The translations under genes and the position numbers were made by a program. A model generated the notes under the pieces. The model had not been told where the DNA came from. It did not search any database and saw only the letters and a program-made list of their open reading frames with translations. A stretch of 39,846 nucleotides of DNA from Flavobacteriales bacterium (GTDB lineage: Bacteria; Bacteroidota; Bacteroidia; Flavobacteriales; BACL11): assembly GCA_002705205.1 (NCBI GenBank), contig PAHP01000019.1, positions 1 through 39,846 of the forward strand, given 5' to 3'. Every line of letters begins with the position of its first letter. Position 1 is the stretch's first letter. Of this stretch, positions 27,381-34,958 are shown piece after piece.

Positions 27381-27524
27381 CTACACACCAAAGTCAGACA
27401 GTGGTTTTTCCATTGGATTAAATCCAGGGTCTAAATACCAACAATAAATTGGAGCTAATATTCCAAGTATAATACAAAAAATAAGATAAGCCCTTCGTAA
27501 CAGCTTAACTTTCACATACTTCAT
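27381..27524 (-). CDS. 47-residue membrane protein, translationally coupled to the lipoprotein gene
   Basis: A short gene whose ATG overlaps the stop of the upstream lipoprotein gene (ATGA at 27521-27524). The protein has a basic start (MKYVKVKLLRR), one hydrophobic helix (AYLIFCIILGILAPIYCWYL) and a short tail ending NPMEKPLSDFGV. The coupling, the proper topology (positive inside) and the non-random tail argue that it is real. The tail, with its Asn-Pro and Ser-Asp-Phe-Gly, looks as if it might continue into a larger membrane protein, so a truncated remnant is also possible. It would be expressed under the cobalamin riboswitch. I do not recognise a family. Confidence 0.6.
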   Translation of the reverse strand: MKYVKVKLLRRAYLIFCIILGILAPIYCWYLDPGFNPMEKPLSDFGV

Positions 27525-28594
27525 TGATAAAAATTAATATTGCTTACATTACCAGCAACAATAATCGTATCAATAAACTGATCTGTATCTATATTATACT
27601 TATATATTGTATTCTTGCTATTTTCTGAATCATTAATGTATAAAACATTCCTTGTGTAATACTGCGTTAATGAATCACTTACAACCTCAGAATACTCCTC
27701 TTCTTGATAGTACAAGACATCAGAAATAGTATTAATAATATTAGTATAGTCAGTTCCATTTGAATTGACACTATAGATACCATCAGATGCCGTAAAATAG
27801 TATTTATTATCATCATTGTCGGACACTAGATTTTTAGCATTATAAACATCATCTAATTGCTGCGTCCAAATCACTTCCCTATTCAAGGGATTAACGCTTA
27901 CCAATGTTGCATTTGTATTATAATCCATATTATTTGGATCATAGATACCTTTACATAGAACCTTTAGGTTATTAACCCATACGGCAGAATTAGGATTATC
28001 TCCAATAGTTATACTACCCCAGGAATCAGCCAATGGAACTAAGTCATCTCTATAATCTATAATAAAAATAGTCGAATCTTTTAACGAATCAGCAATAGCA
28101 CCTCCATTCATAACAAATGAGCGATATAAATTTTTAATAATAGAGATAGGCTTGGTACTATCTCCTGTTTCTATATCTGAAGTAATCTCCATTACATCAA
28201 GATTAACAACCTTTACCTTTGAATCTCCCATATCAACTACAAACATTCTGTCTTCTGGACTCACAAACTCAAAATCAATTGCATCTACAAATCCACCAGT
28301 CCAATCACCTTTTTCAAAGGTTTTAACATTTGCTGTAAAAAGATTATTATCAGTTAAAATATATGCTCTTGTTGTTTTGAATTTAATCCTTTTAACATTA
28401 GACAATGTAGTATTATTTACCGTTGCATATATTTGATTCTTAACCGTATCTCCATCAAAAAAACTAACTCCATTATCAGTAGCTATATACAAACCAACAC
28501 CATAATTATTACTAAGTATTGGACTTTCTTCATTCTCTTCTTTACAAGAAGAAATAAACACTAGAGCAAGAAGAAAATAGTTAATTAATTTCAT
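27521..28594 (-). CDS. Surface lipoprotein with beta-propeller-like repeats (BtuG-like candidate)
   Basis: This 357-residue lipoprotein has a lipobox FISSC, with the cysteine at residue 17 followed by KEENEE, matching the K-(D/E)2 export signal that sends Bacteroidota lipoproteins to the cell surface. The mature part is made of short beta strands with recurrent patterns (DRMFVVDMGDSKVKVVNLD, SKNTIYKYNIDTDQFIDT) like YncE/DUF5074-type propellers. It lies second in a unit headed by a cobalamin riboswitch, and gut Bacteroides use a propeller lipoprotein, BtuG, to bind vitamin B12 at the surface (established knowledge). A B12-binding role here is inference from context and fold impression. A near-consensus -7 box (TATCTTTA) upstream may give extra expression. 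Confidence 0.72.
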   Translation of the reverse strand: MKLINYFLLALVFISSCKEENEESPILSNNYGVGLYIATDNGVSFFDGDTVKNQIYATVNNTTLSNVKRIKFKTTRAYILTDNNLFTANVKTFEKGDWTGGFVDAIDFEFVSPEDRMFVVDMGDSKVKVVNLDVMEITSDIETGDSTKPISIIKNLYRSFVMNGGAIADSLKDSTIFIIDYRDDLVPLADSWGSITIGDNPNSAVWVNNLKVLCKGIYDPNNMDYNTNATLVSVNPLNREVIWTQQLDDVYNAKNLVSDNDDNKYYFTASDGIYSVNSNGTDYTNIINTISDVLYYQEEEYSEVVSDSLTQYYTRNVLYINDSENSKNTIYKYNIDTDQFIDTIIVAGNVSNINFYQ

Positions 28595-28654
28595 ATTCTA
28601 TTTTTTTGGTAAAGATAAGAAAATGAAATGAATCTAAAATATTTTCCAGCTATT

Positions 28655-29857
28655 CTAATAATCAGATTTACTTATATAAACCTTCTGATTATTCTTAATA
28701 TAAACTCCAGAAGGCAGATCTTTTTCATTCAAAATAACTCTTCCTGAAAGATCATAAAGAATCGTATTCTTTTCAGAGTCTAATACAATTGACTCATCAA
28801 TAGATGTGATATTATTTCTTATATCAAATACAATCTTTCCTGGAGATATTCCACAATTAAAGCTTTCTATCATTACATTAGCAGAATCATATATTTCAAC
28901 AGATCCATAAGAGAAAAAATCTGTAGAAGAAGTATATAAATAGTTATTTATATTATCCATCTGTAGAGTATAAAAGTTCTGAGCAAATCCTATTGGAATT
29001 CCTGAAATTGGCATCGTTGCAGGGTCCCATTCATATAAATCTGTATCTCCTGATATTTGATACACAACCTTATTATCTCTAAGACATGATGTCCCACAAC
29101 CTGTACTAACCATAGACATATTAACTGTTGTTGGTGTTGATGTAGCTAAATCTAATTTAGAGATAGATGCACCTGACCAATCTTTATTATTTACAGTATA
29201 GATATTAGTGCCATCAAATAGCATATTATCTGGATTTTTTGCATCAGGACCTAAATCAATCTCACCCGTATAATACATTGTTGACATATCTACAACACCA
29301 ACTATTCCTTTCTCGTTTCCCCATTCATAAGCATTATTTACTGCAACGTATAACATATCATTATTTACAATCATGTTTTGAGTAGACCATTTAGGACCAG
29401 AGATTGTATCAAATTGCATATAAAAACTTAAATCTGATGTATTAAATATCTGTAGATATGAATTAAACAATACTGGCATAAAGGTTGTGTTATCATAATC
29501 ACCTCTAGTGACAATAATTTTATCATTCCATATTGCTAAATTTCTTATACCATCTACTTGCTGATTATTTATTGCTGCCATAGTATATTTATCATATTTA
29601 TAAAGCATATTATCAGCTGCTATATATATATAATCTCCATCTATAATCATATCAGAAGCAAATCTTGATCCTGATAGAGTATCTATTGATGTGTACACTT
29701 GAGTTAATGGATCGTAACTTCCAATTGTTGGAGGCACAATTATTTGATTTGTGGTGAAATCGAAATAACCCTCATTTAGTATTAATACTTGATGCACATA
29801 GTTTTGTGCAAATACTGTGTGCGTTAACACTACTGATAATAATAAAATTCTTTTCAT
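28655..29857 (-). CDS. Secreted propeller-like protein with T9SS sorting domain, riboswitch-controlled
   Basis: This 400-residue protein has a signal peptide ending TVFAQ (about residue 18), then VLILNEGYFDF, which resembles the start of YncE/DUF5074 and BtuG-type propellers, followed by repeated short strands such as DGDYIYIAADNMLYKYDKYT, NNDMLYVAVNNAYEW and DGTNIYTVNNKDW. The last 60 residues are a T9SS type A sorting domain (TILYDLSGRVILNEKDLPSG), so it should cross the outer membrane by T9SS and be surface-attached or released. It is the first gene after the cobalamin riboswitch, about 80 bases from the aptamer. Capture of cobalamin or a related corrinoid is the simplest inference; no TonB receptor or B12 ABC transporter is in the unit. 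Confidence 0.78.
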   Translation of the reverse strand: MKRILLLSVVLTHTVFAQNYVHQVLILNEGYFDFTTNQIIVPPTIGSYDPLTQVYTSIDTLSGSRFASDMIIDGDYIYIAADNMLYKYDKYTMAAINNQQVDGIRNLAIWNDKIIVTRGDYDNTTFMPVLFNSYLQIFNTSDLSFYMQFDTISGPKWSTQNMIVNNDMLYVAVNNAYEWGNEKGIVGVVDMSTMYYTGEIDLGPDAKNPDNMLFDGTNIYTVNNKDWSGASISKLDLATSTPTTVNMSMVSTGCGTSCLRDNKVVYQISGDTDLYEWDPATMPISGIPIGFAQNFYTLQMDNINNYLYTSSTDFFSYGSVEIYDSANVMIESFNCGISPGKIVFDIRNNITSIDESIVLDSEKNTILYDLSGRVILNEKDLPSGVYIKNNQKVYISKSDY

Positions 29858-29897
29858 AATTCTTTTTTTACATTAAACATTAAAAATATACACTAGT

Positions 29898-29917
29898 TCT
29901 GAATGACCTTATCCAGA
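29898..29917 (-). terminator. Candidate expression-platform hairpin of the cobalamin riboswitch
   Basis: On the minus strand TCTGGAT and ATTCAGA form a 7-bp stem (one G-U pair) around a 6-base loop, followed after a few bases by a U-rich stretch. It lies between the aptamer and the first gene, where an intrinsic terminator would act. The stem is AT-rich, so control at translation is also possible. Confidence 0.35.
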
Positions 29918-29936
29918 GATCACACAAACATGTCTG

Positions 29937-30096
29937 AGATAGCAGGTCTTCTGACTTAGTCCTTTTTAGAATGGCCTTCCCATCAACAAGATAGTGGCAC
30001 ATGAAGTATCCAAAATTATAGAGGACTTTACAGCTTCTGGTAAAGTTAAGGATTCTCACCCTATTCCCTTTTCAACACTATTAATAAGCGTATCTA
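29937..30096 (-). promoter_or_regulatory. Cobalamin riboswitch
   Basis: Read on the minus strand, the conserved blocks of the AdoCbl-type aptamer appear in order: GGGAATAGGGTGAGAATCC, AGAAGCTGTAAAG, GCCACT, GATGGGAAGGCC and AAGTCAGAAGACCTGC (the B12 box). AGATA near 30092 and TATCT at 29938 could close P1. The spacing and order match Rfam-type cobalamin riboswitches. It should shut off the downstream surface genes (28655-29857, 27521-28594 and the small gene) when cobalamin is plentiful. Confidence 0.93.
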
Positions 30097-30105
30097 AACT
30101 CGTTA

Positions 30106-30113
30106 CAAAACTA
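30106..30113 (-). promoter_or_regulatory. -7 promoter box for the riboswitch transcript
   Basis: TAGTTTTG on the minus strand is an exact TAnnTTTG placed just upstream of the 5' strand of the predicted P1, so transcription would start at about 30100 and include the complete aptamer. No clear -33 element was seen. Confidence 0.55.
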
Positions 30114-32654: not shown

Positions 32655-34958
32655 TTAGAATGACTTCAGCGCTAATCCAACAAAGATAGTTCTTGGCAAA
32701 CTAGGACCGTATATAAAGTTACTATCCCTGTTTTTTAGAGTGTCAAAATATTTCTGATATGAGTCTGTCAAATTCTTAACTCCAAAACTATATTCTAATT
32801 TTGCACCTACTCGACCCAATTTATGCAGATAAGTAATCTTTAAGCCAACCGAATTAAAAGAAGGAGATACTACAAAGTCATCTTCAGCTTGCTCCGGAGC
32901 TCCTGAAAAATGAATTAAATCCATTTCCCCTGTATGAAGCAGATTTGCTGAAAAAGCTATTCTACCAGAAGGATTATAAGTGAGAGTCGCATACCCATAC
33001 CTGGCTGGGGTCCTTAAAAAAACCCTCCTACCTGGCAAGTAATCAGAATAACTAACTGACTCATCATACATTGAGCTCTGCAAGGTTATACCAGATTCTA
33101 CATGTAATTTCTGTGCGAAATTTAGCCTAAACTCCGTCGCAACACCCTTTACAATCGCTCCTGACCCATTACGCTTCACAAAAATGCTTCCAAACTCATC
33201 TTCTCCAGAAGGGTCTTGATAATAAGCTCCATCTAAATAAGTATAAAAACCCTCAAAAGTAAACCCATAAATATAATACTCAGCAGCCTTATCATAATTA
33301 ACTGATGCACTGAAACTTTCCGAACGCTCTTCTTTCAAATTATCAGAAAGTATTATGCGTGAAACCCCTCCTCCAGAGAACGCAATATGTAAATCTGTAT
33401 CAAAAGCTTGTGGAGCCCTAAAACCTGTACTATAAGAAACTCTAAATTGTGTTTCTTGTCTTAATTTGTACAAGAATGATACTCTAGGACTAACAATAAT
33501 ATTATCAAGCAAAGAATGTTTATCAAATCTTACGCCGCTCAACAAACTAAAATGACCTGTTAAATCCCAATCAGACTGAATGAACGATGCTATATTTGCA
33601 ATCTTTTGATCTATCAAATAGTTATAAGCTGCTATCTCATCCATCACATCATCAGAAACATACTCAGAACCAAAGGTCATTATATTCGATCCAAAAAAGT
33701 TATTTATCTTATAATTCAACTGTACACCAGCCTGCTTTGTATAATTTAAAGAAGATCCATAAGGAGGATTAGACAAATGCTCAATATCTTGCAAACTACC
33801 AACTTCCGGCCTAATACCTGTGTAATGTTCACGCTTCGTTTTCTGAGAAGCAAAATAGGCAATAAAAGATGAGCTGCCATCATTAAATTCTAACTTATAA
33901 TCTATACTGCCCAGAAGAACATCGTGCACTCTTTCTTCTGACTGCATAGCAAGATGAGGAGCGCTACCCACCATTTCCCCTCCATAACGATACTCATGCA
34001 AGCTACCCATATTTATTTCTATCTTTTGATTGTCAGATGGCACAAAAAAAAGAGTAGCCCCAAAAGTATTATCTCTTAACACAGGTAACTCTGAATAATT
34101 GTCAGCATTATGATCATACCACATTCTATCACGATTATTAACAAAAAATGTAGCCCCAGATTGCTTTTTATCAGAAATAATAGTTGCATTTCCATAAATA
34201 ATCTTATCATCAGCAGAAAAATTTATAGTACTATAATCAAAACCTAATATATAATTATTGGAGGTCGGCAATTTAGTAATCACATTTACGACACCACCAA
34301 CAGCAGAAGATCCGTAAAGCGAACTACCTCCACCCCTAACAACCTCAATCCTCTCAATCATATTGGCAGGGATTTGGTCCATACCATACAAACCAGTTAG
34401 CGGACTAAAAATAGATTTCCCATTTATAAGAATCTGAGAATAACCTCCAGACAAACCATTCATTCTTAATTGCGTATAATTACATGTTTGGCAATCAGTC
34501 TCAACTCTTAATCCAGTCTGAAAATTAAGCCCCTCTGCTAAATTACACGCTTGAACACTCTCCAACTGCCTGCTATCAATCACACTCACAACCACAGGAG
34601 ATTGAGTTCTTCTCTTAACAGTTTTTGTAGCTGTAACTACAACTTGATCTAAGCTATAAATAGATATATCTAACGTAACATCAATAACATTTACCCCCTT
34701 ATTAATTTCATAATAAGACCTCTTACTCCTCATACCTATAGCTGAAAAAGAGATATAACAACCTCCTAACGGAACATTATCAATAACATAATCTCCATTC
34801 TCATCAGCAGAAACACCCAAGCCGACCCCCTCAATCATAACATTTGCGAATGACACAACTCCGCTCGCTGACACTACACTCCCTTTTACAGTTTGAGAAT
34901 CTGCATTTAGCGAGAAAAATATAAAGGTAATTATTACTAGATACGTTAATCTACACAT
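32655..34958 (-). CDS. TonB-dependent outer membrane receptor with carboxypeptidase-like N-terminal domain
   Basis: This 767-residue receptor has a signal peptide ending NADSQ (about residue 22) and a carboxypeptidase-like regulatory domain (23-98). A TonB box-like DQVVVTATKT (104-113) precedes the plug domain (about 115-235), which contains ILINGKSIFSPLTGLYGMDQ and RIEVVRGGGSSLYGSSAVGG. The rest is a 22-strand-type barrel ending in the aromatic LKSF. The plug carries Cys156 and Cys159 in TDCQTCNYTQLRMNGL. The substrate is not encoded in any clear motif, but the divergent DtxR-type regulator, the ZIP transporter and the palindrome in its promoter indicate transport of a metal or metal complex (iron, manganese or zinc). 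Confidence 0.9.
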   Translation of the reverse strand: MCRLTYLVIITFIFFSLNADSQTVKGSVVSASGVVSFANVMIEGVGLGVSADENGDYVIDNVPLGGCYISFSAIGMRSKRSYYEINKGVNVIDVTLDISIYSLDQVVVTATKTVKRRTQSPVVVSVIDSRQLESVQACNLAEGLNFQTGLRVETDCQTCNYTQLRMNGLSGGYSQILINGKSIFSPLTGLYGMDQIPANMIERIEVVRGGGSSLYGSSAVGGVVNVITKLPTSNNYILGFDYSTINFSADDKIIYGNATIISDKKQSGATFFVNNRDRMWYDHNADNYSELPVLRDNTFGATLFFVPSDNQKIEINMGSLHEYRYGGEMVGSAPHLAMQSEERVHDVLLGSIDYKLEFNDGSSSFIAYFASQKTKREHYTGIRPEVGSLQDIEHLSNPPYGSSLNYTKQAGVQLNYKINNFFGSNIMTFGSEYVSDDVMDEIAAYNYLIDQKIANIASFIQSDWDLTGHFSLLSGVRFDKHSLLDNIIVSPRVSFLYKLRQETQFRVSYSTGFRAPQAFDTDLHIAFSGGGVSRIILSDNLKEERSESFSASVNYDKAAEYYIYGFTFEGFYTYLDGAYYQDPSGEDEFGSIFVKRNGSGAIVKGVATEFRLNFAQKLHVESGITLQSSMYDESVSYSDYLPGRRVFLRTPARYGYATLTYNPSGRIAFSANLLHTGEMDLIHFSGAPEQAEDDFVVSPSFNSVGLKITYLHKLGRVGAKLEYSFGVKNLTDSYQKYFDTLKNRDSNFIYGPSLPRTIFVGLALKSF

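Follow-up and report, generated by a model that had tools for sequence, protein, structure and literature searches.

A riboswitch-controlled BtuG-like propeller of a type IX-sorted family at the site of BtuB-BtuG in Flavobacteriales

Organization of the cobalamin riboswitch locus

The window, that is, the whole stretch of DNA that was analysed (39,846 nucleotides), carries on its reverse strand a cobalamin riboswitch followed by the genes of a propeller protein (T9) and a propeller lipoprotein (LP) and by a short reading frame. The features of the locus, and a receptor gene considered below, are as follows.

29924..30113, (-) strand: cobalamin riboswitch aptamer (RF00174), located by cmscan
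30106..30113, (-) strand: TAGTTTTG, candidate -7 element (TAnnTTTG) at the 5' edge of the aptamer, from the sequence
28655..29857, (-) strand: T9, a predicted BtuG-like beta-propeller of 400 aa with a Sec-type N-terminus and a shortened T9SS-type C-terminus (open reading frame, AlphaFold2 model, profiles)
29768..29776, (-) strand: T9 residues N28-E29-G30, invariant in T9 and in BtuG-like lipoproteins (alignment, profile comparison)
28658..28762, (-) strand: T9 residues 366-400, C-terminal remnant similar to the final part of a T9SS type A sorting domain (family matches to PF18962/TIGR04183)
27521..28594, (-) strand: LP, a predicted BtuG-like propeller lipoprotein of 357 aa (lipobox SSC, Cys17, then KEENEE; AlphaFold2 model, profile)
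27381..27524, (-) strand: 47-aa truncated 5' remnant of a DUF998 membrane-protein gene (identity to the intact gene)
32655-34958: 767-aa TonB-dependent receptor beside a DtxR-type regulator and a ZIP transporter

The cobalamin aptamer of the original prediction was recovered by Rfam as a full-length match to RF00174 (positions 1-189), scoring 75.8 bits (gathering score 31.5; E 4.4e-17; cmscan), and it is the sole cobalamin riboswitch found in the 1.21-Mb, 73%-complete window genome. Aptamers homologous to it lie upstream of T9 orthologues and, in relatives, at the equivalent site upstream of BtuB. The -7 element of Bacteroidota promoters has the consensus TAnnTTTG, which is fitted by TAGTTTTG at the edge of the aptamer; the element recurs in most aligned T9 leaders and may have promoter activity. 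In the window, the unit contains neither a TonB receptor nor a B12 ABC transporter, in agreement with the original prediction.

The 47-aa reading frame, which had been taken for a mini membrane protein, starts with an ATG that overlaps the LP stop codon, and in the window its own stop lies only ~30 bp from where the convergent peptidase gene ends. Its product is 64% identical to the N-terminus encoded by the DUF998 gene that is intact at the corresponding place in the relative G009 (197 aa). The gene is also intact there in G164 (204 aa), where it likewise stands behind the riboswitch, T9 and LP. Against the DUF998 model PF06197, the reading frame scores 12.9 bits versus a cut-off of 30 bits, which the copy of G164 passes with 45.3 bits. 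Judged by these comparisons, the reading frame is a decay remnant, the truncated 5' end of a DUF998 gene, and not a membrane protein in its own right.

Predicted folds and export signals

When T9 and LP were searched as single sequences against Pfam, NCBIfam and the PDB, nothing useful was returned, and neither protein could be named in this way. AlphaFold2 models were built from orthologue alignments, with a mean pLDDT of 76.9 for T9 and 87.1 for LP, and were then compared with the PDB. For both models the first 13 fold matches are all BtuG, most of these structures containing bound cobalamin, so that the propeller-like character proposed for the two proteins is upheld at the level of structure prediction. 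The best match of the T9 model is 8okv (E 2e-15, TM 0.79 on the target), and the next other fold follows more than five orders of magnitude behind it (E 8.5e-10). The best match of the LP model is 8p97 (E 3e-15), and its next non-BtuG match is ~1000-fold weaker in E-value than the last BtuG. Similarly, the lipoproteins of relatives that served as a reference, themselves BtuG by sequence (8p97, E 2e-89), are matched by the T9 profile with E 3e-13 (E 9.5e-14 with 53 members) and by the LP profile with E 4e-39, and the T9 profile finds the BtuG structure 3dsm at the sequence level (E 1.9e-5). In a phylogenetic tree, T9 forms one clade separate from BtuG and LP (support 0.83).

The residues with which BtuG binds its ligand can be compared with T9 through sequence profiles only. 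In BtuG2 it is the loop Asn54-Thr64 that grips the ligand (PMC10404256), and the invariant NEG of BtuG-like lipoproteins would sit at this loop. The same NEG is invariant in T9 (N28-E29-G30), and LP has TDxG at that place. Like BtuG, both T9 and LP are acidic (pI 4.1-4.4 across the three, with 4.1 for T9), as is expected for the capture of a positively charged corrinoid.

T9 had been described as exported by the type IX secretion system (T9SS), and this description holds for the family more firmly than for the window protein itself. A T9SS type A sorting domain (PF18962 and TIGR04183) is present in 40 of 53 T9 homologues, and the T9SS translocon protein SprA is encoded in the window genome (2668 bits). 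In T9 of the window and of its small-genome relatives, however, only the last part of the tail is kept (YDLSGRVI...LPSGVYIKNNQKVYISK), which falls below threshold, and the window protein is therefore only presumed to take this route. T9 has no lipobox cysteine or surface-lipoprotein signal. LP, on the other hand, has the lipobox SSC with Cys17, followed by KEENEE, an arrangement that fits the surface-lipoprotein signals of Bacteroidota (PMC6143338) and is consistent with the surface-type lipoprotein originally proposed.

Replacement of BtuB-BtuG and distribution of the riboswitch-T9 pair

In the family to which the window belongs, the gene order HTH-DHODH-HMGL, riboswitch, variable segment, LP and M42 peptidase is conserved. 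The variable segment consists of BtuB and a BtuG lipoprotein in one set of genomes (G009, G021, G012, G016, G008, G020, G001, and G011) and of T9 in the window genome (G000) and in G005, G013, G014, and G024. A swap is also found within a single genus (g23 of family f9), where BtuB-BtuG is present in G099 and T9 in G032, G056, G064, and G072. The order in G099 is HMGL, CobT, CobS, CobC-like phosphatase, riboswitch, BtuB, BtuG and antiporter; the CobT, CobS and CobC-like phosphatase genes of nucleotide-loop assembly, which here lie between HMGL and the riboswitch (L123:8910-11220), are not at that place in the T9-bearing species of the genus.

Among 398 sampled genomes of the order, mostly incomplete metagenome assemblies, 19 encode T9 and 201 encode BtuB, and the overlap is 0 (Fisher p 1e-6). 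The exclusion is also seen within the window's own family (p 1.7e-4), and T9 genomes of 97-99% completeness (G024, G032, G045, and G056) conform to it as well. The absence of BtuB originally remarked on for the unit thus extends to all 19 T9 genomes tested. The partnership proposed between T9 and LP fares less well as a general rule: T9 occurs without LP in family f9 and in most of the wider loci described below, and LP also accompanies BtuB, so LP is not essential to T9 in general, and a two-stage hand-over between the two proteins is possible only for the window's family.

With the single T9 sequence as query, a pattern scan of the genome collection gave no match. An alignment-based scan of 84,980 genomes yielded 97 T9 relatives, 80 of which were kept; they come from metagenome-assembled genomes of Flavobacteriales, which often bear the title Crocinitomicaceae or Cryomorphaceae. 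A B12 box lies 42-139 bp before the T9 start codon in 78 of the 78 loci with upstream sequence, and the pattern has no other match in 2.08 million strand-bases. Rfam confirms the riboswitch in 24 of 24 loci with upstream sequence (25 submitted). T9 is mostly a lone gene in these loci and has varying neighbours (pnp/rpsO/pyrR, DHODH/HMGL, an ~800-aa TonB receptor, and others), and neither BtuB nor a BtuG lipoprotein is found beside it in any of the 80. The only members for which no riboswitch was detectable belong to four f7 and two f15 genomes. Small-genome T9 members from four families cluster in the tree, which suggests, with modest support (0.79), that T9 has been transferred between lineages.

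B12 is used in the window genome by a methylmalonyl-CoA mutase and an IcmF-like fused mutase, and MetH is encoded in several T9 genomes, its presence not separating the T9 group from the BtuB group. FecCD/BtuC-type permeases are missing in nearly the whole family (relatives G000-G022 and G024), BtuB-bearing genomes included, and their absence is uninformative on T9, since it is found with or without BtuB. In family f15, T9 directly follows the gene of a DUF6580 membrane protein (L120:6504-8227, L121:6774-7265) and overlaps it in G109, and in G031 a DUF6580 gene (L084:5804-6346) also adjoins that of BtuG; in genomes that lack BtuCD, DUF6580 may supply the missing inner-membrane B12 transport.

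Probable corrinoid capture and alternative readings

Taken together with the sorting domain of the family, the observed riboswitch, the two predicted BtuG-like folds, the syntenic replacement and the exclusion of BtuB lead us to read T9 as a substitute for the BtuB-BtuG cassette, and the unit, with a probability of roughly 0.7, as a B12-repressed corrinoid-capture locus in which this cassette is replaced by a T9SS-tailed propeller of the BtuG superfamily. We infer the steps of export, binding, hand-over and transport as follows. By analogy with known cobalamin riboswitches, low B12 would permit expression of T9, and of LP where present. T9 would leave the cytoplasm via Sec and would most likely then be carried by the type IX system to the cell surface or into the medium, where it could bind corrinoid on a conserved acidic face, as the modelled BtuG fold and the invariant NEG loop suggest. 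LP would probably bind either corrinoid or T9 at the outer membrane, and passage through this membrane would depend on a receptor other than BtuB. A more far-reaching form of this reading, which we put forward tentatively and somewhat short of even odds, is that T9 could act as a 'corrinophore', either secreted or anchored to the surface: exported by the type IX system, the propeller would collect extracellular B12 and pass it to an outer-membrane route independent of BtuB. It would then be a lone-gene, riboswitch-controlled alternative to BtuB-BtuG across several Flavobacteriales lineages.

It is also conceivable, although unlikely, that T9 binds corrinoid within an ordinary BtuB-BtuG pathway whose divergent BtuB lies elsewhere in the genome and was missed. 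Receptors are not scarce, with at least 11-16 plug-domain receptors in each T9 genome among the matches listed, and nine wider loci have T9 ~300 bp downstream of an ~800-aa TonB receptor. The BtuB profile, however, reaches at best 41-70 bits in T9 genomes, as it does with generic receptors, compared with 300-900 bits for BtuB elsewhere (40 relatives). Moreover, the ~800-aa receptor group is found equally in genomes with BtuB, and no second cobalamin riboswitch is found in T9 genomes. When ~80 of the TonB receptors among those listed were clustered, none was shared by T9 genomes while missing from those with BtuB.

In the nine loci (L264, L265, L269-L273, L258, and L261), the ~800-aa receptor gene, of a widely shared group, ends upstream of T9 with the riboswitch lying between them, and this receptor is a possible partner of T9. 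The 767-aa receptor of the window (32655-34958) was weighed as a candidate for the missing partner but discarded, because it is conserved in BtuB-bearing as well as T9-bearing relatives, lying upstream in the former too (e.g., G009), and because it adjoins the DtxR-type regulator and the ZIP transporter; a metal or siderophore role is likely for it. On contig 25 of G015, a short contig, a riboswitch is followed by a receptor unlike the BtuB of the family (L080:651-2606), and this contig looks like contamination from another phylum.

A change of ligand is a quite unlikely explanation, according to which T9 would be a BtuG-like surface protein that is made under B12 limitation, binds something else (such as another tetrapyrrole, a cobamide precursor or a metal complex) and helps the cell to cope with B12 shortage without importing B12. 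Several features would accord with such a change: structure alignments give only ~15% identity between the T9 propeller and BtuG, the conserved polar set of T9 is shared with BtuG in part only, and some f7 and f15 members lack the riboswitch. DUF5074 (PF16819), which is matched by the BtuG lipoprotein of G009, has no match in T9 or LP of the window, and 51 of the 53 T9 members fall outside it, the other two matching weakly. Set against this, T9 occupies the exact place of BtuB-BtuG behind an equivalent riboswitch and never occurs with BtuB in the sample, it retains the NEG loop and the acidic charge, and its host genomes need B12. The idea that genome reduction alone removed BtuB from small genomes, such as those of the window's relatives (1.0-2.0 Mb), and left T9 as an unrelated surface protein under a leftover riboswitch is very improbable and already contradicted, because riboswitch and T9 occur together in several unrelated gene neighbourhoods, some of them outside the small marine families, and a leftover switch cannot account for this.

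The preferred reading, T9 as a substitute for BtuB-BtuG, can be set beside the B12 capture systems already described. BtuG1-3 of Bacteroides thetaiotaomicron (PDB 3dsm, 8bmy, 8p97, and 8okv) share with T9 a seven-bladed propeller as the best-matching fold, control by a cobalamin riboswitch, the conserved NEG at the first loop, strong acidity and an expected surface location. BtuG is a surface lipoprotein encoded beside BtuB, with 106 BtuG in 106 of 109 btuB operons (PMC6143338), whereas T9 lacks a lipobox and belongs to a family with T9SS sorting; it also falls outside DUF5074 in Pfam, and in the sample it excludes BtuB. The BtuB-BtuG outer-membrane complexes (PMC10404256) correspond to an equivalent riboswitch-controlled site in relatives, but their TonB-dependent barrel is missing from the T9 locus and from the T9 genomes tested. 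Accessory surface B12 binders are also encoded in riboswitch-controlled loci, as is T9; these are BtuH, which binds via its C-terminal domain and is found in BtuB loci, and the DUF4465 proteins BtuJ1/J2, which are jelly-roll B12 binders (PMC8941943, PMC13398666). In contrast to them, T9 is a predicted propeller and mostly a lone gene. The BtuG of G028 (L085:7765-9057) resembles the T9 family in being a BtuG-like propeller that is encoded behind a cobalamin riboswitch and ends in a full T9SS type A tail, but it differs in belonging to DUF5074 and adjoining BtuB; to judge by its sequence, T9SS export of a BtuG-like protein has apparently arisen outside the T9 family too. In the open-licence literature, no report was found of a BtuG exported by the T9SS, nor of a BtuG relative under riboswitch control in the absence of BtuB.

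B12 uptake in Bacteroidota has so far been described via BtuB capped by the lipoprotein BtuG, whereas in the B12-using genomes considered here this pair is replaced at the riboswitch by a single T9SS-type relative of BtuG. BtuB is consequently unusable as a marker of B12 scavenging in these aquatic lineages, and an outer-membrane route without BtuB becomes a concrete question. The pattern points to another mode of B12 capture at the cell surface, and it offers a hypothesis of function for a propeller family that has no Pfam or NCBIfam model of its own in the libraries searched. In G004 (L013:8843-10441), a T9 protein is extended past the propeller to the contig end by further domains, which include a segment that by eye is cupredoxin-like.
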